Positions 16,737-26,771 of a stretch of DNA of 64,000 nucleotides are shown in pieces. Within the stretch, counting starts at the first letter, position 1. Every line of letters begins with the position of its first letter. The stretch is taken from NCBI RefSeq assembly GCF_009659625.1, contig NZ_VOIW01000001.1, positions 248,001 through 312,000 on the forward strand, in the 5' to 3' direction. Below the pieces are notes generated by a model, which saw only the letters and a program-made list of their open reading frames with translations, did not search any database and was not told the origin of the DNA. The stretch is from Pseudomonas haemolytica. Lineage in GTDB: Bacteria > Pseudomonadota > Gammaproteobacteria > Pseudomonadales > Pseudomonadaceae. Made by a program: the position numbers and the translations under genes.

Positions 16737-19178
16737 CTAACGCTTTATCTCCTTATGGGTAGAAAACGTTGTGCGTATTTCACAACAAAATCGGCCTCGC
16801 GCTTGCGCGAGCCATAGCTCCTCAGGGCAAGGGCGCATTTCCGAGAACTTCACCTGGCTGGCGCTCTGCAGGGCATTGCTGATGCCGTCTAACGACAACG
16901 GGTTATCAAAGTCGAGAAATAAAGGTTTGGGCTCGGAGTCAATCTTGATGAAGGCATAGCGCGGCAACCCCTGGGCTACTGCCCAGGAGCGCCATTGCAA
17001 CGTATGGTCAAGATCGTCGATGGAGGTTTTCAGTTGCGGCAGTTGGTCGCTTGAGAACAACCAGGAAGCCCGTTTGTAGAGCGCGCGCCCCAGCCAGATA
17101 CGGCGCTGATCGTGTTTGGCGACAGCGCTGCCGGCCAGGGCGAAACCGAGGCGATGCAGTGGGGTCGGGTAGACGCAGAGCAAATCTTCGCTGAATTGGC
17201 CCAGGGCATCGATTACCTGCAAGCGTCCATTGGCGTACGTCACTTTTGCCCGGCCGGCGGCAAACTGTTGATGCGCGGCGACGCAACCCCCGCCGGTGGG
17301 CAGTACCAATTGCTGATAGGACGGCAGCAGTGGCCAGTCGATATGGGACCGTTGGTAACTTTCCGGCGAGTCAGCCAGAACCAGCCGCGGACGCTGAAAG
17401 ATCGCCTCTACCTCTTCGTTCACCTGAGTATTGAACGGACCGAAGGGGGCCGCAACGGGCTGGCTGAGGGTATGCACCGCCGGGTGAACTTCACCCACGA
17501 TGATGGCGTAATCGCCTCGGTTGATAGCGTCCACCGATGCACTGGAAAGCAGAAAGTCCGGCGAGTGGTAGTCACTGCCAAACACCTCGAAGTCGGTGAC
17601 GCCCAGTTCGGCATCCAGACGGCTTATCAGGCGTTCGACGTCTGCAGCCCGCAGATGCACATCGAGGTTGTCCGGGAAGCCCTCCAGTTGCTGTGCCCAG
17701 GCATTGTCCAGGCGCTGCTCCAGGTCGATGACAATTCGCGCTTCAATCGCTGGCAATAGTGGAGCCAGTGAGTTGAGCAGGTCGAGAAAATCCACGGGCG
17801 TGCCCGCCAGGGCATTTTGACGCTGCTCCCATACTTCAATGAACGCCTGGTTGAGCTGATGCGCGATGGCTTTGATGAGCCATTGGTGGATTCGCATCAG
17901 TGGCCCCAAGTCATCATTTATCTGCGCGAGCAAGCCTCCACCCAGACTGATAGTCATGTTTCTCGAACAGTCTTCGTACACGGGGTAACGACCGACATAC
18001 ATAGCACCGGTTTCTCGACTGAGGTCGACACCGGCTTCAGCGAGCAGTTGGTTCAGCGTATCCAGGCATTCCGTGCGGCGCTCAAGGTCGCCTATGGCGT
18101 AGTCGCGGCGTGCGTTTTCCAGCTTCTCCAGGCGCAATTGCCAGGTTTGGCGAAAGGCTTCAGGTAGTCGGGCATCTTCCAGCCAGCGTTGCATCTGTTC
18201 TATCGGCTGACGTTCGCGCGGCGATATTCGCCAGCCACGACGCACGATGCGTTTGCTGACCAAGTTTTCCAGCAGGTCGCGCAGGGCGCTGGCTGGCGTG
18301 TCCGCACTGGCGTTCAACAACCCGCGAAATGTCGGCGTGCCATCGCCTGGGTTGTTGACGTAGGCCAATACCTGCGCGGTTGGCGGGCTCAGGTGCTGCT
18401 TTTTGCCGATCGGCATGAACAAGGTCTGTTCTTGCAGGTAGCAACCCGTGTTGAGTTGCAATGGCATGCAGTCGAGGGCAGGGCATTGCTGGTTGATTTG
18501 ATCGACCAGACGTTGTACTGCCCAGTTTTCGAAAAACGTATGGCGGTCCTTGATCCATGCATCACCGTAAGTGACGTGCATGTTCTCTGCCTGCTGGGGA
18601 TCGAATCGGCCCCAGGCCAGGGGGCCGAAAAAGCTTGAGGTGTCGTTTTTGGCGCAGAAACGCTGGGCATAGCTCCAGCCTAATCGCAGCTTCTGTTTCT
18701 TGCGCGTATCGTTTTTGGCGTACCGGTCGCGAATCAGCTCACGCGTGCGCGTCAATGCGGACGGGTTGGAAATGAACAGAGCCTCGGCGACTGCGTCGTC
18801 ATCCAGAAAGTCGATCAACCCTTGGCGGGTGCGTTCCAGGTAAGCCTGGTATTGCTGGTCTGCCTCTGTGCGTGTTGCGGTCTGTTCCAGTAAGCCATTC
18901 CAGTCGTGTACGGCAGCGGTCAAAGGCTCGCGCAAGGCTTGCGGCAGGTCGGCGATCTGCAGCGTGAGGCCTTCGTTGAGTTTACGAATCAGCTTGCGGC
19001 AGGCTTGGGGTGAGTGGGCATTGGCCGCTTCAAACAGGGTGGCCTTCACCGCTTGCAGTGCGCGAAAACACTGTTCAAAGGCTCCGCAGGCAGGCAGCTC
19101 GGAAAACCCTCCGAGCGCGGTCAGGTGATGAATGGGGAAACCGGTTGAGCGCAGCCAGAAGTAATGTGAGCTTTGCAT
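16737..19178 (-). CDS. Short LanB-like peptide aminoacyl-tRNA ligase (PEARL), TglB-like
   Basis: An 813-residue protein with the lantibiotic-dehydratase N-terminal (tRNA-dependent aminoacylation) domain. Family signatures: RFCAKNDTSSFFGPLAWG at 173-190, matching the LanB R-x-x-x-R-x-T-x-F-G-x-x-A-G region, and GRYPVYEDCSRN at 396-407. Full LanBs are about 1000 residues; the C-terminal elimination domain appears to be absent. That is typical of PEARLs, which add an amino acid from tRNA to a peptide C-terminus. In the P. syringae tgl pathway TglB adds Cys to TglA. Last gene of the operon, 3 nt after the TglI-like gene. Confidence 0.85.
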   Translation of the reverse strand: MQSSHYFWLRSTGFPIHHLTALGGFSELPACGAFEQCFRALQAVKATLFEAANAHSPQACRKLIRKLNEGLTLQIADLPQALREPLTAAVHDWNGLLEQTATRTEADQQYQAYLERTRQGLIDFLDDDAVAEALFISNPSALTRTRELIRDRYAKNDTRKKQKLRLGWSYAQRFCAKNDTSSFFGPLAWGRFDPQQAENMHVTYGDAWIKDRHTFFENWAVQRLVDQINQQCPALDCMPLQLNTGCYLQEQTLFMPIGKKQHLSPPTAQVLAYVNNPGDGTPTFRGLLNASADTPASALRDLLENLVSKRIVRRGWRISPRERQPIEQMQRWLEDARLPEAFRQTWQLRLEKLENARRDYAIGDLERRTECLDTLNQLLAEAGVDLSRETGAMYVGRYPVYEDCSRNMTISLGGGLLAQINDDLGPLMRIHQWLIKAIAHQLNQAFIEVWEQRQNALAGTPVDFLDLLNSLAPLLPAIEARIVIDLEQRLDNAWAQQLEGFPDNLDVHLRAADVERLISRLDAELGVTDFEVFGSDYHSPDFLLSSASVDAINRGDYAIIVGEVHPAVHTLSQPVAAPFGPFNTQVNEEVEAIFQRPRLVLADSPESYQRSHIDWPLLPSYQQLVLPTGGGCVAAHQQFAAGRAKVTYANGRLQVIDALGQFSEDLLCVYPTPLHRLGFALAGSAVAKHDQRRIWLGRALYKRASWLFSSDQLPQLKTSIDDLDHTLQWRSWAVAQGLPRYAFIKIDSEPKPLFLDFDNPLSLDGISNALQSASQVKFSEMRPCPEELWLAQARGRFCCEIRTTFSTHKEIKR

Positions 19179-19181
19179 GAT

Positions 19182-19970
19182 TCAGGCCGGCATCCTTATT
19201 GCGTTGAGTTGATGCAGCTTGCCAAGCACTGCAAGATCATCGCCGTTGTGGGGGGCATGCGATGCCAGATCCTCAAGCAACCGTGGCTGTTCCAGGTCGG
19301 CGTAAAGGCGTGCCGCCTGCGGGCTGATGAGCGTGAATTTGTGCCGAGCCTCGGGGTTGGGTAAATACACCAGGATGTGCTGACAGGCCGGTTCCAGCGG
19401 CCCGCGTCCCAGTTGGGTCTTATCGCGCAGCCAGTGTGAGAGCGCAAAGCGGCTATGGTGAAGGCGGGCCTGGGCGGTACGTTGATAACGACCAGGTACC
19501 GGAACGGCGACGTCCATCAACCCGGTGTATAAATGAACGCACTCGCGTTCAAGCCCGATCAGGTCCCGGATCTCGGGATGATCGGCCAGCTCCTGGCGTT
19601 CCAGTAAGAATTCCAGTACCGCGTCGCAATAGCCATACACCCTTGGCCCAAAGTCGAACCAGTCGTGTTCGCGCAAAAACGTCCGGGAGAGTGTGGGTAG
19701 ATCCAATCCGATGTTGATCAGCGCGCGCAAGGTCAGCGGGGCGCCGGTCTCCAGCGCATTGGTAAAGGAGTTGACCAGGCGGAACTGGTAGTTTTCGACG
19801 AACCACTTCACGCGGTCGAACTGGCCGGCATAGGCTTGCAGAATCGTGCGTTCATCCTCAGGAAAATGTTGCAGCCATTGCGTTGCTCCCTGCGCCTGGA
19901 ACAACTGTTGCTGCAAGGTTTCATCGCGCAGCAGACGCCGCCAAAGCTTCCAGACCTGCTCAGCATCCAT
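19182..19970 (-). CDS. TglI-like partner protein of the DUF692 oxidase
   Basis: A 262-residue soluble protein without catalytic motifs that I recognise. Its N-terminus (MDAEQVWKLWRRLLRDETLQQQLF) and its position, overlapping the DUF692 gene by 11 nt, match the partner subunits of MNIO enzymes (TglI, comparable to MbnC). These hold the peptide substrate and are needed for activity. Assignment rests on context plus length more than on motifs. Confidence 0.72.
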   Translation of the reverse strand: MDAEQVWKLWRRLLRDETLQQQLFQAQGATQWLQHFPEDERTILQAYAGQFDRVKWFVENYQFRLVNSFTNALETGAPLTLRALINIGLDLPTLSRTFLREHDWFDFGPRVYGYCDAVLEFLLERQELADHPEIRDLIGLERECVHLYTGLMDVAVPVPGRYQRTAQARLHHSRFALSHWLRDKTQLGRGPLEPACQHILVYLPNPEARHKFTLISPQAARLYADLEQPRLLEDLASHAPHNGDDLAVLGKLHQLNAIRMPA

Positions 19971-20874
19971 GCGCCAGCTCCCGTGCAGGTTGGGTGTAAT
20001 GATTCCAGATTTTCTGTGCTCGCCGGACGTCGGTGACGATCATGTGTTCGTCATTGGCATCCATTACCCGGGTGAGCGCATGGTGGGCCTGCCCTTGATA
20101 TTCCAGGATGATCGCCGAAGGTCGGGCCCGTGACATCAGTTCTTCGTACAGGTCCCAGACAGGCTCGGGCACGCTGGTGTCATGCCAGTCGTGATAAAGC
20201 CCCTCGTGCCAACTGCCCCCGGCCAGGTGCACCGAGATCACCTTGTCCAGCGGCAAGGTATCCAGGTAGTCACGCAGGTCGAAATCCTTGAGGTTCAGGT
20301 GGTTGGTGTAGATGTTGTGCAGGTCCAGGTGCAGAAACGTACCGGACTGCTGCACCAGCCGGGCGAGAAACTCGGCTTCGCGCATTTCTGCGCCTGGGCA
20401 TTGCAGATAATAGGCTGCGTTTTCATGGGCCAGCGGCATCCCATAGTGCATTTGCAACGCCTTGGCCCGTTCGGCACAGCGCAGTACTTCGGCGTTGGAG
20501 AACTGCAGGGGGCTGCTCCAGATATCCAGCCATGAGTTATCGCCATAAAAGCAATGATTGGCCACCCACGGGCTGTTCAACATCTTCGCCAGGGGTACAT
20601 GGCGCTGCACCGCCGCAGTTTGCTCCAAAGGGCTGAAACCAAAGTCGCAGCCGTAATTGGAGTGCGCCAATAACGTGAACTTCTCGGCCAGCCGCTCCAT
20701 CATCGCTCTGGCCGCCGGCTTGATGATCTGCGGACCGTCCATGGGCGCCATGATGTTATCGAGCAGGATTTCCAGGACATCGACTTCAATGTCCTCGAAG
20801 GGAAACCAGTCAAGGATCTCGGGGTTGTACTGAATGCCCACGCCAATCGGGTCGGGCTTAACGAATTGAGTCAT
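19960..20874 (-). CDS. DUF692 multinuclear non-heme iron oxidase (MNIO), TglH-like
   Basis: A 304-residue TIM-barrel enzyme of the MbnB/TglH family. Likely metal ligands are spread as expected: His71 (LLAHSNYG), His107, Glu151 in HENAAYY, His182/Asp184/His186 in HLDLHNIYTNH, His216 in HLAGGSWHEG and Glu258 in LEYQGQ. With its partner it would oxidise the added C-terminal Cys and excise the beta-carbon to give 2-mercaptoglycine, as TglHI does. ATG 20874 has AGGG 7 nt upstream; a start at 20976 would overlap the peptide gene and prepend unrelated sequence. Confidence 0.88.
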   Translation of the reverse strand: MTQFVKPDPIGVGIQYNPEILDWFPFEDIEVDVLEILLDNIMAPMDGPQIIKPAARAMMERLAEKFTLLAHSNYGCDFGFSPLEQTAAVQRHVPLAKMLNSPWVANHCFYGDNSWLDIWSSPLQFSNAEVLRCAERAKALQMHYGMPLAHENAAYYLQCPGAEMREAEFLARLVQQSGTFLHLDLHNIYTNHLNLKDFDLRDYLDTLPLDKVISVHLAGGSWHEGLYHDWHDTSVPEPVWDLYEELMSRARPSAIILEYQGQAHHALTRVMDANDEHMIVTDVRRAQKIWNHYTQPARELAHGC

Positions 20875-20902
20875 GGGTTGCCCTGTCAGGCGAAAGAAGG
20901 GG

Positions 20903-20927
20903 CTTCCCCGGCTGCATGCCGGGGAAG
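20903..20927 (-). terminator. Hairpin between carrier-peptide gene and downstream enzyme genes
   Basis: CTTCCCCGGC (20903-20912), loop TGCAT, GCCGGGGAAG (20918-20927): a perfect 10-bp stem 11 nt after the peptide stop and 28 nt before the DUF692 start. On the minus strand it is followed by CCCCTTCTTTCG, not a strong T-run. It could be a partial terminator or a 3'-end stabiliser that keeps carrier peptide in excess over enzymes. Confidence 0.65.
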
Positions 20928-20938
20928 GTTTGGAACAG

Positions 20939-21088
20939 TCAGGCAAAAACCTTGCTCTCGATGACTTCGATGTCATCCAGGTCGAACTCCTCGAACAGCG
21001 CCTCTTCGGTAGCTTGGGGCGCGGGAACGGATGCGTTTTCGACGGGCAGGTCGTTATTGACGATCGGGGTGGTTGGAGATTGAGTCAT
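20939..21088 (-). CDS. TglA-like carrier (scaffold) peptide, 49 residues
   Basis: A small gene between the M50 protease and DUF692 genes. The 49-residue product is very acidic (11 Asp/Glu, one Lys), has no cysteine and ends in LFEEFDLDDIEVIESKVFA. Absence of Cys plus a PEARL nearby fits a carrier to which Cys is added post-translationally, as for P. syringae TglA. GAGGA, formed partly by the preceding stop codon, lies 8 nt before ATG 21088, and the gap to the protease gene is 10 nt. The leader-like acidic helix (FEEFDLDDIEVIES) is a likely binding segment. Confidence 0.85.
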   Translation of the reverse strand: MTQSPTTPIVNNDLPVENASVPAPQATEEALFEEFDLDDIEVIESKVFA

Positions 21089-21098
21089 GGCACTTTCC

Positions 21099-22241
21099 TC
21101 AGGGGTGGTTGAATAGGCGGATCACAGTGAAGGCCGTGAAGCACCAGGCGATGACCCATCCCAGGCAGGTCAACACACAGGTGCTCCAGTAGAGTCTGCG
21201 CAGCTGTGGGGAGACCGGCTCCGGCGCTGCGCGGCGCGAGCGCCGCACATAATTGAACGCTCGCTGGCGCAAGCGTGGCTGCTCCAGGCATTCGATAATT
21301 GCCAGGTAGGTGTCGCCATTGAAGATCGGGAGCAGGGTCGGTATCAGGGAAATGAACGACGCTACGACCATCACCACGAACAGCGCGGGGAAAACGCCTT
21401 GGGCATCTCGGTACAACGCCCACAGGACGATCCCGGCACCGGCGTACATCAGGCTGACCATCGGGCCTGCCAGGATGGTGATGACGCGTTGATTCAGGGG
21501 AAGTTGCGACCACTGTTTTTGCACTGGACGTACCCAGCCTGTGGCCAGTAGCAAGTAGATACCAATGCCGAAATCGTTGACTTTGACGCCATAATGTCGA
21601 CATGCCATGGCATGGCCAAGCTCATGCAGGGCAATGGACGTGATGATGACGGGGAAGTGCCAGATCAACCAACGGTAGCTGTGCACATAGGTCGCGGCAG
21701 CGTCAGCCATGAACGCGTCAAAGTGCATACCCAGGTAAACGAAACTCGCCAGCGCCAACACCAGTAGCGGCACATTAAAGGTCGCGCGACAACACCATGG
21801 AGCCCACCGGTAAAGGTGATCGAGCAACGGCTGCGGGTTGGTCTTCACAAGGTTGATCAACAAGTGTTCTTTCAGCGGGCCATAGGTGATACCCGTGGCC
21901 GGGTCGCGCAAGTTACTTTTATGAGCCGTGTGCTCGCTGCTCAGCAGTTTCAGGTTGAGCAACTTGCGCTCGAATTGCACCAGCTTCTCGGGACTGATCT
22001 TCATTCGGTGACGGGCAAGGGCTGAGGCCATGATGTCGGAGTGGCTGCTGTGGCCATCGAATAGCAACGCGAGGGAGTACTCGGCCTTGCCCAGTTCAAA
22101 ACCGAGGTCCGAAGACGGGTCATAGAGTTGGTAACGTTGCACGGCGCTATCGGCTGCCGGCGGTGTCACGATCAGGTCATTTCTGAAACAGGCATGGGCT
22201 GGCGCTGCAAGCTTCCTGGTCGCATAGGCTGAGCTGCTCAT
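21099..22241 (-). CDS. M50 (site-2) metalloprotease with PqqD-like N-terminal domain, TglG-like
   Basis: A 380-residue membrane protease. Residues about 35-102 (from QLYDPSSDLGFELG to FERKLLNLKLL) look like a PqqD/RRE-type peptide-binding winged helix. TM segments follow, with the zinc motif HELGH at 206-210 and a distal PIFNGD (Asp310) as the likely third ligand. In the tgl pathway TglG releases the modified amino acid and regenerates the carrier. ATG 22241 overlaps the methyltransferase stop as ATGA; a GTG at 22256 is the alternative. Confidence 0.82.
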   Translation of the reverse strand: MSSSAYATRKLAAPAHACFRNDLIVTPPAADSAVQRYQLYDPSSDLGFELGKAEYSLALLFDGHSSHSDIMASALARHRMKISPEKLVQFERKLLNLKLLSSEHTAHKSNLRDPATGITYGPLKEHLLINLVKTNPQPLLDHLYRWAPWCCRATFNVPLLVLALASFVYLGMHFDAFMADAAATYVHSYRWLIWHFPVIITSIALHELGHAMACRHYGVKVNDFGIGIYLLLATGWVRPVQKQWSQLPLNQRVITILAGPMVSLMYAGAGIVLWALYRDAQGVFPALFVVMVVASFISLIPTLLPIFNGDTYLAIIECLEQPRLRQRAFNYVRRSRRAAPEPVSPQLRRLYWSTCVLTCLGWVIAWCFTAFTVIRLFNHP

Positions 22242-23155
22242 GGCTGAGCCCACCACGCGTGCAGGCGCGGCCTATAGGTTTCCACCAGCGCTTTGCGGCC
22301 TTGAGCCTTGACGTCGGCCAGGCGCTCGTCCGTGCGCTGATGACTGGCGCGGCCCAGCACAAAAACCGCCCCAGGGCGGGTTGGGCCGCAGACGGGTTCA
22401 TGGGTGGTGCGGATCGGTTCCCAGCCATGTTTACACATCAGGTGTTCGATGCTGCTGGCGCTGAGGTAGCGTCGATGGTTATGGGTCAGGAAGCCCTGTT
22501 CGAGGCCGTAGCCCAGGGCGCGGCCCTCAATCAACAACAACCCATCGTCCGCACTGGCCTGCCGGCACAATTGCATGACCTGATTGACGTCATGGACATG
22601 TTCCAGTGACCCATTGATGATGATCAGGTTGTATTCGCCAGTGGGGCTCATGTGCTCAGCGCCCACCAGGTCGATGTCCAGGCCGATCCTCTTGCCGTAT
22701 TCCACATAGGCACGGTCGGGATCATTGCCTCTGACCGCCCAGCCATGTTTGGCAAACGGGATCATCAACCCGCCCGCGGAACAACCGACGTCGAGCATTT
22801 TGCCTGTGGCGGGAAGTAGCTCTTTGAGGTACCGATACAGGTGTTCTCCGCGGCGTACCTGGTCAAGAAAAAACGCGCGCTCCGGTTCTGAATTGCCGAA
22901 CAGGCTCAGGCGGTAAAACTTGTCGTAGTAAGCGTTATAGAAGGCTTCCTCGAAGCGGTATTGCTGAAAAATATGCCCGCATTCCTGGCAACCCAGTACA
23001 GGCAAGTCTACCGCCTGCTCGCCCGGCCCATGAACGCTGTGCAATAGCACCCAGTGTTGTTTGGAGTTGCACAGTTCGCAGTCCATCTTGTGCGCGCGAA
23101 AAGTGTCAGGCATTTGCAAGCGTTGTAAGTATTTTTGTTCTATAGGTGTGCTCAC
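22238..23155 (-). CDS. Zinc-ribbon class I SAM-dependent transferase, TglF-like
   Basis: A 305-residue enzyme with paired CxxC motifs (Cys26/29 and 56/59, CELC and CQEC) and a Rossmann SAM motif LDVGCSAGG at about 121-129. With a carboxy-SAM synthase encoded next to it, it is the likely carboxymethyltransferase that alkylates the peptidyl mercaptoglycine thiol. AGGA 7 nt before GTG 23155 favours this start; ATG 23194 would overlap the upstream gene by 26 nt. An ordinary methyltransferase cannot be excluded. Confidence 0.72.
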   Translation of the reverse strand: MSTPIEQKYLQRLQMPDTFRAHKMDCELCNSKQHWVLLHSVHGPGEQAVDLPVLGCQECGHIFQQYRFEEAFYNAYYDKFYRLSLFGNSEPERAFFLDQVRRGEHLYRYLKELLPATGKMLDVGCSAGGLMIPFAKHGWAVRGNDPDRAYVEYGKRIGLDIDLVGAEHMSPTGEYNLIIINGSLEHVHDVNQVMQLCRQASADDGLLLIEGRALGYGLEQGFLTHNHRRYLSASSIEHLMCKHGWEPIRTTHEPVCGPTRPGAVFVLGRASHQRTDERLADVKAQGRKALVETYRPRLHAWWAQP

Positions 23156-23168
23156 GATGACATCCTGG

Positions 23169-23921
23169 TCACTTGATGCAGAAAAAACCTTCAAAGCAGA
23201 TGTATTTGAATACCGTGGTTATATCCTTAAAGCCTGCACGGCTTAACAGGTCGATATTTCCGGCGGTGGAGAAGGGTTCAAGGACACCTTTGAGGCTTCT
23301 GGTCTTCGCCAGTATTTCATCGGCGCTATAACCTTGGTCGCGTTTGTAGTCCACGTAGAGACTACTGAGAATGTCCTGAAAGCGCGCATCCGGCCCGCGG
23401 ACTTTCTCGAACATGATGAACGCGCCTCCCCAATTCAATGCTTCGTATATTCGATCAAACAGGGCCTGGCGGATGCGCGGGTGCACGAATTGCACCGTGT
23501 AATAAGCCACGATCAAATCGCTTTTTTGATAATCGAACGTCAGTATGTCATCAGTTACAAAGCTGACATTGGGCTGCGGTGCCGCGCTCAACAGTGTGTT
23601 CGCCTGGCACGTCATCGCATCTTCCACATCGATGCCTACCCACTTTGTCGAGGCGCAGTGGCGTAATGCAAGTTGACGAGTCAGGGTGCCGGTAGAACTG
23701 CCCAGTTCATAACAGGTACTGTCGCTCTTTACAAAAAAGTCGCTGAGTGACAAAACGATTTCATGCCCATCTTTATATCGGGGTACGGACTTTGATACAT
23801 GCGAGTCAAAGTGCTGCGGCGTTGTGCCACCGAAACTCCAGGCCGCATTGCGCGACTCGACACCGTCACCGACGGTTTCATAGGGAAGAGCAGGCGAGGT
23901 CATCAAGGTAGACATGTTCAT
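23169..23921 (-). CDS. CmoA-like carboxy-SAM synthase, TglE-like
   Basis: A 250-residue SAM-dependent enzyme that closely follows CmoA: FDSHVSKSVPRY at 38-49, SAM motif YELGSSTGTLTRQL at 71-84, FEKVRG at 171-176, YVDYKRDQGYS at 189-199 and KTRSL with Arg208, the position of the CmoA Arg that binds the carboxylate of prephenate-derived carboxy-SAM. It would make carboxy-S-adenosylmethionine for the neighbouring transferase. E. coli CmoA modifies tRNA together with CmoB; no CmoB homologue is here, so a dedicated biosynthetic paralogue is likely. Confidence 0.82.
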   Translation of the reverse strand: MNMSTLMTSPALPYETVGDGVESRNAAWSFGGTTPQHFDSHVSKSVPRYKDGHEIVLSLSDFFVKSDSTCYELGSSTGTLTRQLALRHCASTKWVGIDVEDAMTCQANTLLSAAPQPNVSFVTDDILTFDYQKSDLIVAYYTVQFVHPRIRQALFDRIYEALNWGGAFIMFEKVRGPDARFQDILSSLYVDYKRDQGYSADEILAKTRSLKGVLEPFSTAGNIDLLSRAGFKDITTVFKYICFEGFFCIK

Positions 23922-24106
23922 TCACATCCATGCTGGAGAACGTTGAGGTGCGTCACTGTGGCGAGCGCGATGTGAATCGCACTCGACACGTTAGCGTTTG
24001 TTTTTATTGTCCCGGCTGCCCGAGAGAGTTCTTGTTGCCAGGTTGATTGCCGGCCCCGTCTTCGAGGTGCGGCGATAGTTAGTCAGCGTTGAGTGTAATA
24101 ACGCAT

Positions 24107-25318
24107 TTACGCCGTCGCGCCGACCATTGTTCGTCGCCATACAAGACGCGCCAATGTGATCGACCAGTTGCACAGGGCGACAACCAGAATGATATAGAGC
24201 AACGTCGACATGCCATGGTTGACGATGACTTTACCGGCCAACAACGGAAACCCGAACACACCGACAAAGTAGGAGAGACTGAATAACACCAATGATTGAG
24301 CGGTCTGGCCGGCGGGTGCTTCATTGGCTGCCAGTCCGTTTATCACGGAGTAAGTCAGGCCATAACCTACCCCGAGCACAACGGCGGCTAGCAAATACGC
24401 TGCTGAGGAGTGTACGAAGAAAGTGAACATCAACACCGAAACCACCATCAGCGCACTCAACAGGCTGGACATCAGGTAGGGATCACGTTTGACGATATAG
24501 CCTGCGACCAGCAGGCGACAGGAGATCGCTGCGCTCATGAAGCCCAGGAAGAACAGCGAGTAATCGAGATGGTTAAGCGCGGCATAGGAGGTCTGGAAAC
24601 TCGAGAGTCCGCCGAAGATCGCGCCGCCGAGGCCTACCATGATGATGGCAAATACCGCCTTGGAACTCAGCACTGCCTGCGCTGCCCGGGCGCTGATCTT
24701 GCAAACGGTCACCGGCCCAAGGCGCGCTTGTTGCTGCTTGATGTTCGGCCCGAGCAGGAAAAACACCAATCCCCCTGCCAGGCTGGCGATCGCGGCCACT
24801 ACAAACGCCGACTCCACGGAATAGCCCAGCGCCTCGGAGGCTCGCCCGACCAAAGGCCCCGTGCCTATGCCACTCATCATGCTGCCCGACAGCAAGGCAA
24901 AATACTTCACGCGCCGGGCAGGTTCTATGATCATCGCCACGATGATCGGTCCAAGGGTATAGAACACGCCCCATCCGAACCCCAGGATCAAGCCGCTGGC
25001 CAGCAGTGCCACGCCGAAAGCAGGCACGGTTGCGAAGCCCAGGCAAGCCGCTGCCAGTAACACAGCACCCGCTGCGATGGCTCTGGGAGCGCCGATCAGA
25101 TCGGTCAAGTGGCCTGAGAATATGACTGCCAGGAACGTACTGAGCATCGCAACCGAGATGATCGTACCGGCGTCGGACTCGCTGCCGCCGCTTTCCCTGA
25201 GCTTCATTGCCAATAGGAACGTAGTGCCGTAAGACAGGGATAGTAAATAGCTGCCCAGGCAAAACAGGCCGAACAGCCCGTTGCCAGTAGCGTGGCTCGC
25301 GGACGTTTGTGAAGACAT
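24107..25318 (-). CDS. MFS transporter, probable exporter of the operon's product
   Basis: A 403-residue membrane protein with about 12 hydrophobic segments and the MFS loop signature (SGHLTDLIGAPRAIAAG) between helices 2 and 3. AAGGAAAG precedes ATG 25318. It lies between the decarboxylase gene and the carboxy-SAM synthase gene on the same strand, so export or immunity for the small-molecule product is the simplest role; uptake cannot be excluded. A 185-nt gap separates it from the next gene, the largest inside the operon. Confidence 0.8.
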   Translation of the reverse strand: MSSQTSASHATGNGLFGLFCLGSYLLSLSYGTTFLLAMKLRESGGSESDAGTIISVAMLSTFLAVIFSGHLTDLIGAPRAIAAGAVLLAAACLGFATVPAFGVALLASGLILGFGWGVFYTLGPIIVAMIIEPARRVKYFALLSGSMMSGIGTGPLVGRASEALGYSVESAFVVAAIASLAGGLVFFLLGPNIKQQQARLGPVTVCKISARAAQAVLSSKAVFAIIMVGLGGAIFGGLSSFQTSYAALNHLDYSLFFLGFMSAAISCRLLVAGYIVKRDPYLMSSLLSALMVVSVLMFTFFVHSSAAYLLAAVVLGVGYGLTYSVINGLAANEAPAGQTAQSLVLFSLSYFVGVFGFPLLAGKVIVNHGMSTLLYIILVVALCNWSITLARLVWRRTMVGATA

Positions 25319-25364
25319 GGGCTTCTTTCCTTGTGGAATCGAAAGTGATGAGTCGGTAGAGGAA

Positions 25365-26771
25365 TTAATCAGCTGCGCGTTTTAACGCGGCGGTTACCCG
25401 ATCAATATCTTCCACTTGGGTCATCCAATTACTGATGGATAAACGCAACGCGTATTCACCTTTGTATGTCGTCGGGGTGATATACAATTCGCCACTGCTG
25501 TTGAGGTTACTCAGCACCTGTTTATTGAGTTCCGCCAAGGCAGTGGGAGAGCAAGCGTCTTTGAAGTAACGAAAGACCAGGAGATTCAACCTGACTTCAC
25601 ATAAAAGTTGAAAGCTGGGACTTTCATTAATCCATGCGGCGATACGCTGGGCATAACCACAGTGGCGTTCTATCAGTTCCCTGTATCCAGCCTTGCCATA
25701 GGCTATCAACGTCATCCATAACGGCAGCGCCCGATAGCGTCGAGACTGTTCGACACCACGGTTCATGAAAGCCGGTAATTGCCCTTCCATCGGAACGTAG
25801 GGCGCATCAGCTGAAAATGCTCGCTCATGAAGAGTGACATGGCGGGTAAATGCGATGCCGCAGTCATATGGAACGTTGAGCCATTTATGCGCGTCGGCTG
25901 TAATAGAGTCCGCAAGCTCCAAGCCTTCTACCAGATGCGCATACTGACTCGAGCACCTCGCGAAGGCACCGAACGCTGCATCGACATGCAACCATGCAGC
26001 GTATTTTTTGCATAACGCGGCCAGCGAAACCAGATCATCAAAATCGCCACTGTTAACGGTGCCTGCACTGGCCACCACGATTCGACAGGTCGATGGGCAA
26101 GTGCCAAGCGCCTGTTCCAGCGCCTGTAGATCAAACACTTCGCGATCAGGCAGGCAAGTTACATTGATAAAGTTACGCTGACCTATACCGAGAAGCCCCA
26201 GGTCTTTGACAATGCTTGAGTGGGGCGAGGCGCAGAAAACCATTACGGGAGGCGCGGCCTGAAGACCGTCCCGGGCGATGCTGACGTTGTTCTGTTCACC
26301 ACACCATTCACGGGCGGTGGCCAGGCCGACGAGATTCGCTGCGGTGGCGCCTGTTGTCAGTACGCCGTGGAAAGCACCTGATGGGAGCCTGAGTAAATCT
26401 GCCAGAAAACTGAGGGTCTGGGCTTCGATGAACGCTGCTACAGAATGGCGTTCAGTCGCAACGTTCTGATCCAGCACGGAAACCAGCCAATCACCAGCCA
26501 ACGCTGCGGGCGTAGTACCGCCGGTGACAAAACCAAAGTATCGCGGGCCTGTACTGCGAGTGTGGGATTCGCCGTAGTTTTCCCAATACGTTGCCAGAGC
26601 GGCTAACCCGCCAATCCCCTGCTCAGGCATCGCGGACTGAATCGTGCGGTGGTGAGGCTGAGTATTGACCACATCGGCATTACGAGCGTCTGCCAGAAAA
26701 TCCAGCGAAATACGACAGACCTCAGCCATCAGTTCAGGCAAAGCAGATTCGTCACGGGGGAACCCCAGCAT
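25365..26771 (-). CDS. PLP-dependent group II amino-acid decarboxylase
   Basis: A 468-residue fold-type I enzyme of the glutamate/aromatic amino-acid/L-2,4-diaminobutyrate decarboxylase family. Lys296 in DAHKWLNVPYDCG binds PLP, Asp264 in HVDAAFG would pair with the pyridine nitrogen, and His184 in SPHSS stacks on the ring. A perfect Shine-Dalgarno AAAGGAGT precedes ATG 26771. First gene of the operon. Its substrate could be the released thia-amino acid or another building block; that is inference only. Confidence 0.82.
   Translation of the reverse strand: MLGFPRDESALPELMAEVCRISLDFLADARNADVVNTQPHHRTIQSAMPEQGIGGLAALATYWENYGESHTRSTGPRYFGFVTGGTTPAALAGDWLVSVLDQNVATERHSVAAFIEAQTLSFLADLLRLPSGAFHGVLTTGATAANLVGLATAREWCGEQNNVSIARDGLQAAPPVMVFCASPHSSIVKDLGLLGIGQRNFINVTCLPDREVFDLQALEQALGTCPSTCRIVVASAGTVNSGDFDDLVSLAALCKKYAAWLHVDAAFGAFARCSSQYAHLVEGLELADSITADAHKWLNVPYDCGIAFTRHVTLHERAFSADAPYVPMEGQLPAFMNRGVEQSRRYRALPLWMTLIAYGKAGYRELIERHCGYAQRIAAWINESPSFQLLCEVRLNLLVFRYFKDACSPTALAELNKQVLSNLNSSGELYITPTTYKGEYALRLSISNWMTQVEDIDRVTAALKRAAD

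Follow-up and report, generated by a model that had tools for sequence, protein, structure and literature searches.

A predicted 3-thiaglutamate (tgl) operon with an upstream decarboxylase and transporter gene pair in Pseudomonas haemolytica

We analyzed a 64,000-nucleotide stretch of the Pseudomonas haemolytica genome (hereafter the window; positions 248001-312000 of contig 10 in a 6.0 Mb genome) and found in it a locus resembling the tgl cluster, the genes known from Pseudomonas syringae for the biosynthesis of 3-thiaglutamate, a sulfur analogue of glutamate. Nine open genes lie on the minus strand from 26771 to 16737 in the order C, D, tglE, tglF, tglG, tglA, tglH, tglI, and tglB. Neighboring genes overlap or are separated by no more than 64 bases, the one wider gap being the 185 bases from D to tglE. 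The initial annotation had described nine minus-strand genes here, encoding a pyridoxal phosphate (PLP) decarboxylase, a major facilitator superfamily (MFS) protein, and seven proteins of tgl-like domain types; all of these open reading frames are present, and the domain calls hold. It had further stated that P. syringae uses this enzyme set. The cluster genes are listed as tglA, B, H, I, F, E, and G in the accessible text of PMC10880893, and the founding tgl paper is Ting et al. 2019, as cited in PMC8719888. Thus, the statement is right for seven genes of the series (A, B, E, F, G, H, and I), while the decarboxylase and the MFS gene fall outside the list as published there. We label these two genes C and D, and a second MFS gene that occurs at other tgl loci J; these are labels of this analysis and not published gene names. 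The names 'TglC' and 'TglD' for C and D were dropped, as they had been prompted by the gap in the published letters and none of the text read uses them in this way.

The carrier peptide gene tglA (20939-21088) encodes 49 residues with the C-terminal end FEEFDLDDIEVIESKVFA. The peptide scores 93.4 bits against the NCBIfam equivalog NF038377 (cut-off 45). Combining the alanine-scan residues and the F-D-L-D motif given in the accessible part of PMC9016710, we assembled residues 33-50 of P. syringae TglA and found the last 18 residues of the window's peptide identical to them. This stretch covers the residues of the single-alanine scan published there for TglHI. The gene tglH (19960-20874) encodes a multinuclear non-haem iron oxidase of 304 residues (DUF692/MNIO; PF05114, MbnB_TglH_ChrH) that matches solved TglH (8hci chain D) with 607 bits across 303 residues. 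Comparing it with the 304-residue solved protein, we placed its start at 20874 and not at the first ATG at 20976. With this start, nine of nine iron ligands are present, and their numbering equals that in the accessible text of PMC10880893. The gene tglI (19182-19970) encodes the 262-residue partner protein with a recognition element for ribosomally synthesized and post-translationally modified peptides (RiPPs). TglI reaches 488.4 bits against the equivalog NF058584 (cut-off 450, NCBIfam) and 326.8 bits against solved TglI (8hci chain C). The TglA and TglI scores are far above what chance would give.

The four remaining proteins of the published set were identified by domains, residues, and gene order, since NCBIfam gave no match over cut-off for TglB, TglE, TglF, TglG, or TglH. 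The product of tglE (23169-23921), a putative carboxy-S-adenosylmethionine (carboxy-SAM) synthase of 250 residues, matches CmoA (4gek) with 98 bits and the CmoA model TIGR00740 with 133.6 bits, which is under the cut-off of 193.3. It carries an arginine aligned to CmoA Arg199, the residue reported to bind the extra carboxylate (PMC3663124, as far as its text was accessible). TglE looks like a dedicated CmoA paralogue, because a separate CmoA elsewhere in the genome scores 285.9 bits, above the TIGR00740 cut-off. The gene tglF (22238-23194; TTG start) encodes a predicted carboxymethyltransferase of 318 residues with a zinc ribbon and a SAM fold (Methyltransf_23, 53.3 bits); its N-terminal zinc-ribbon cysteines Cys39/42/69/72 are kept in all nine tgl loci compared (described below), and its best matches among solved structures reach 22 bits only. 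TglG (21099-22256; GTG start, 385 residues; PF02163, 45.1 bits) is a membrane M50 protease that would free the product, with a HELGH motif at residue 211. Both tglF and tglG overlap the preceding gene, tglF over tglE by 26 bases, and their true starts may lie slightly further downstream. TglE and TglF are 80% and 64% identical to the Pseudomonas cerasi copies, respectively. The last gene, tglB (16737-19178), encodes a predicted peptide aminoacyl-tRNA ligase (PEARL; a short LanB) of 813 residues, in which Lant_dehydr_N (PF04738, 71.8 bits) is the sole Pfam domain found. Its Arg10, Asp541, Glu800, and Arg802 are conserved with the P. syringae-group copies. One of the PEARL phosphorylation residues is printed as Glu542 in the accessible text of PMC11962472; the corresponding position is Asp in nine of nine loci, including the P. 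syringae group. Against solved structures, TglB retrieves a lantibiotic dehydratase at 24 bits only.

The reading of the locus as a tgl pathway, proposed in the initial annotation, is thus backed by two NCBIfam equivalogs, the matches to solved TglHI, and conserved catalytic and recognition residues. That annotation had made its case dependent on detectable similarity of the short LanB, the DUF692 oxidase, and its partner to TglB, TglH, and TglI, and such similarity is evident for all three (TglB is 60% identical to the P. syringae-group copies). We consider it highly probable that the locus is a complete tgl operon, predicted to make 3-thiaglutamate on a reusable carrier peptide. Several points weigh against this. 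TglB reaches this 60% identity and matched no NCBIfam family, and TglI is 61.7% identical to solved TglI. The comparison with P. syringae was drawn from solved TglH and TglI and from P. syringae-group loci, not from other proteins of the studied strain ES4326. Moreover, the promoter scan gave no promoter-like site upstream of C (its sites were no commoner than in shuffles, 3 vs 5.8), and 185 bases separate D from tglE; hence, the nine genes may be transcribed as more than one unit. Compared with Pseudomonas lactucae, the ratio of nonsynonymous to synonymous substitution rates (dN/dS) ranges from 0.04 to 0.34 across all nine genes.

The steps reported for P. syringae in the accessible part of PMC9016710 are cysteine addition by TglB, followed by TglHI, TglE/TglF, and release by TglG. 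By orthology, TglB of the window would join cysteine to the C-terminus of TglA, and TglHI would excise the cysteine beta-carbon as formate to leave 2-mercaptoglycine. TglE would produce carboxy-SAM, with which TglF would carboxymethylate the thiol. Finally, TglG would cleave off 3-thiaglutamate and free TglA for reuse. C and D would be accessory, acting on the free product, moving it, or serving something else. The biological role of 3-thiaglutamate is given as not known in the same source.

An RNA hairpin lies directly 3′ of tglA (20903-20927), between tglA and tglH, with 10 pairs in the scan and 9 in the minimum-energy fold. For the tglA-tglH spacer, the folding energy is −27.4 kcal/mol (z −3.1), and none of 200 shuffles folded as low. 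The same spacer gives a hairpin fold in nine of nine tgl loci; in the two loci of the P. syringae group, the hairpin is longer and of different sequence, and these loci were left out of the pairing and covariation counts. Across the seven aligned loci, 98.6% of the cells are paired, and one pair is changed on both sides (two cells). The covariation signal is weak, as similar values arise from shuffles (the score was reached by 29 of 500 and the number of such pairs by 242 of 500) and from sliding the alignment by one column, which also yields one double-changed pair; after sliding, 36-67% of the cells are paired. The terminator scan found sites no commoner than in shuffles (9 vs 9.9), so the case for the hairpin comes from its folding and its recurrence across loci and not from the scan. 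An Rfam search returned no match reaching the gathering score. The hairpin may allow the cell to produce more TglA than enzymes from the genes downstream of it.

We searched for tgl loci in other genomes. TglI over cut-off was present in six of 398 genomes of the genus, the window's own included, and in none of 14 control genomes. A second genus draw gave five TglI genomes among 378, all of them among the first six, and an order-level draw of 293 genomes returned TglI in the window's own genome only. A further draw of 144 genomes returned only its central genome, adding no tgl locus. Scanning named genomes, we found seven tgl loci; its queries were six short patterns taken from a single sequence, and more distant loci may therefore have escaped it. 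Four of the six TglI genomes coincide, by coordinates, with loci of the named-genome scan. These counts indicate that the tgl cluster is rare in the genus. Performing plasmid searches with TglB, we obtained 15 records, all below 60% identity and all from Streptomyces or Kitasatospora. Another Pseudomonas tgl cluster is not new in itself, as the accessible text of PMC12822146 reports a cluster of Pseudomonas CAM1A most similar to 3-thiaglutamate (80% by antiSMASH). The pathway is already known, and the window adds an intact-looking copy of it in Pseudomonas.

Nine loci were compared: the window; L002 (P. lactucae MAFF 301380); L003-L007 (Pseudomonas protegens FD6, Pseudomonas umsongensis DSM 16611, Pseudomonas fluorescens 28B5, Pseudomonas sp. 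LD120, and sp. Irchel s3h17); L008 (P. cerasi, genome G192); and L047 (genome G384). L008 and L047 are taken as near the studied P. syringae locus because their TglI proteins are 97.0% and 98.5% identical to solved TglI, respectively; the P. lactucae locus is the closest named relative of the window's cluster among those found. In all nine, the genes run E F G A H I B. For the 6.7 kb and 7.2 kb of flanking DNA compared from the window, there was no match longer than 150 bases in the compared stretches of the other loci, so the cluster sits among different neighbors. A clean empty site was not found: 12 genomes, the window's own included, carry most of the pqiA stretch, and in the 11 others, the window's other flank was absent within the 1.5 kb examined.

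The loci differ in their accessory genes. C (25365-26771), the first gene of the series, encodes a group II PLP decarboxylase of 468 residues (PF00282, 163.6 bits), and D (24107-25318) encodes an MFS transporter of 403 residues (PF07690, MFS_1, 102.5 bits) for which no NCBIfam family matched. C, whole or split, and D stand directly upstream of tglE in four of the nine loci (window, P. lactucae, L008, and L047), and both are absent from the examined stretches of L003-L007. The L008 copy of C is split across two frames. J is open and directly follows tglB in L003-L008. In L047 (7131-8304, 15957-16671), tglE is split between frames, as is J, which also has a gap, and C and D are open; in view of the two split genes, L047 may be a dead locus or contain assembly errors. 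Hence, an intact C occurs without an intact J in three of nine loci and an intact J without an intact C in six, with no locus having both or neither. Because the five loci with J alone are similar to one another and the two of the P. syringae group are closely related, the pattern amounts to perhaps three or four independent observations and not nine. No J orthologue was found in the window's own genome, where the best-scoring match is 25% identical; the other genomes were checked at the locus only. C is dispensable for 3-thiaglutamate and stands outside the core chemistry, because six of the nine tgl loci lack an intact copy (missing in five and split in one). The alternation of C-D with J gives a testable handle on the fate of the free product.

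Orthologues of C with more than 60% identity were present in five of 398 genus genomes (the window's own, G384, G192 with the split copy, G169, and G006), three of which carry tglI. G169 (locus L045, 8130-11392) retains C, D, and a cut-short tglE, and G006 (locus L046, 7755-10391) retains D and a split C; neither has tglI. Their C sequences are 98.5% identical, and we counted the two as one loss event for this reason. Orthologues of D were present in L002, L008, L047, L045, and L046, and D follows C in six of six loci with C, whole or split. In a class-wide search of 350 genomes with an E limit of 1e-80, only the window's own genome gave a relative of C.

We also checked the sequence of C for hints of its substrate. 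Its HSS, HVDAA, DAHKW, and APYVP motifs also occur in the four orthologues inspected; we take them to mark the PLP lysine and the loop tyrosine of a working group II decarboxylase. C is 90% identical in P. lactucae, with a dN/dS of 0.106 (0.040 for D). It scored 30.8 bits against the glutamate decarboxylase model TIGR01788 (cut-off 380.4), and no NCBIfam decarboxylase equivalog cut-off was reached. The best solved relatives are a 3,4-dihydroxyphenylalanine (DOPA) decarboxylase, enzymes recorded simply as pyridoxal-dependent decarboxylases, and a desferrioxamine biosynthesis enzyme, with glutamate decarboxylases lower; thus, the sequence gives no hint of an acidic substrate. An AlphaFold2 model of C from five orthologous sequences had a mean predicted local distance difference test score of 47.6, too poor to use. 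The open-access literature searched, Ting et al. 2019 and supplements aside, gave no role for the decarboxylase and MFS pair or for tglC and tglD.

Plasmid searches returned 414 records for C and 13 for D, all below 60% identity. The closest plasmid relatives of C (47%, 44%, and 42%) lie in three unlike contexts with no annotated tgl gene. On a Deinococcus aetherius plasmid (3966-7269 of the retrieved locus, L049), a PhzF-like gene, an ornithine cyclodeaminase-like gene, and the C-like PLP decarboxylase gene (47%) are consecutive, with transposases nearby on either side. On a Burkholderia stagnalis plasmid (1-9003 of locus L050), the C-like gene (44%) stands in a row with genes for an iron-containing redox enzyme, an MFS protein, a DsbB-like protein, and a flavin oxidoreductase. 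These genes adjoin ATP-grasp genes and may form a small-molecule cluster; the MFS protein encoded next to the C-like gene shares 24.7% identity with D. A rhizobial plasmid carries a partial relative of D whose annotated neighbors include no decarboxylase.

What C and D do admits of several explanations. They may be passengers, upstream of tglE by chance, with C acting on an ordinary amino acid. The plasmid relatives of C away from annotated tgl genes and the 185-base gap between D and tglE fit this. On the other hand, the C-D-E order is kept from P. lactucae to the P. syringae group despite different flanks, and of the five genus genomes with a C orthologue, a fourth besides the three tglI carriers holds a tglE remnant. 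We regard the passenger reading as possible, on the unlikely side. The pair might instead detoxify, expel, or take up 3-thiaglutamate for self-protection or use, and so outlive the biosynthetic genes. The remnants in G169 and G006 without tglI recall resistance genes, which sometimes persist after pathway loss, and C and J look interchangeable between loci. Yet the two remnants are one event, the split C in one of them fits plain decay, and we know of no toxicity of 3-thiaglutamate to bacteria, so a protective role appears rather unlikely. Lastly, C could turn free 3-thiaglutamate into a thia analogue of gamma-aminobutyric acid (GABA) or into breakdown products, with D exporting the amine; the actual end product of the strain would then resemble GABA and not glutamate. 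The initial annotation had likewise allowed for a decarboxylated or otherwise altered relative of 3-thiaglutamate, and we regard such a product as possible. The position of C-D directly upstream of tglE in four loci, the retained lysine and tyrosine as we read the motifs, the dN/dS of C, and the failure of intact C and intact J to occur together, as if they were alternative ways of handling the product, all speak for such a decarboxylation. The loss or splitting of C in six loci, DOPA decarboxylase as its best solved relative, the small number of related loci behind the C/J pattern, and the unusable structure model speak against it, and we find it unlikely. The broader proposal that tgl clusters come in two forms, with J exporting 3-thiaglutamate in one and C making and D exporting the thia-GABA analogue in the other, is a speculation that we hold to be quite doubtful. 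If true, the J form would mimic the plant glutamate signal and the C-D form the plant GABA signal.

The core pathway itself could have another product, a different thia-amino acid such as the 3-thiahomoleucine of the tmo cluster. The C-terminal part of TglA weakly matches the TmoA model (29.2 bits). However, this falls short of the TmoA cut-off (70), whereas the peptide exceeds the TglA cut-off; no radical SAM family matched any of the nine proteins at E 0.001, and the locus has the carboxy-SAM pair, E and F. We hold a tmo-type product to be very improbable and retain the reading of a tgl operon predicted to make 3-thiaglutamate.

Compared with the tgl cluster of P. syringae pv. maculicola ES4326, as described in the accessible parts of PMC9016710 and PMC10880893, the window has all seven published genes, with matching functions by the residue tests. 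P. syringae TglA has 50 residues vs 49 in the window, besides the identical C-terminal stretch. ES4326 itself was otherwise compared via the two P. syringae-group loci. In both of these, D and C likewise lie upstream, with the L008 copy of C split, and J stands after tglB in L008 and in split form in L047, whereas the window has no J. Their flanks differ from the window's. The P. lactucae locus carries the same nine genes in the same order, with proteins 78-97% identical, and like the window, it has no J after tglB in the stretch examined; its flanking genes are unlike the window's. The five loci L003-L007 share the hairpin after tglA and the E F G A H I B series with the window and, unlike it, have J after tglB and no C or D at the locus. 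Farther away, the tmo cluster of Tistrella mobilis, according to the accessible text of PMC9303977, has a PEARL, an HI pair, a G protease, and a scaffold peptide in common with the window, and it uses TmoS and the cobalamin radical SAM enzyme TmoD instead of E and F.

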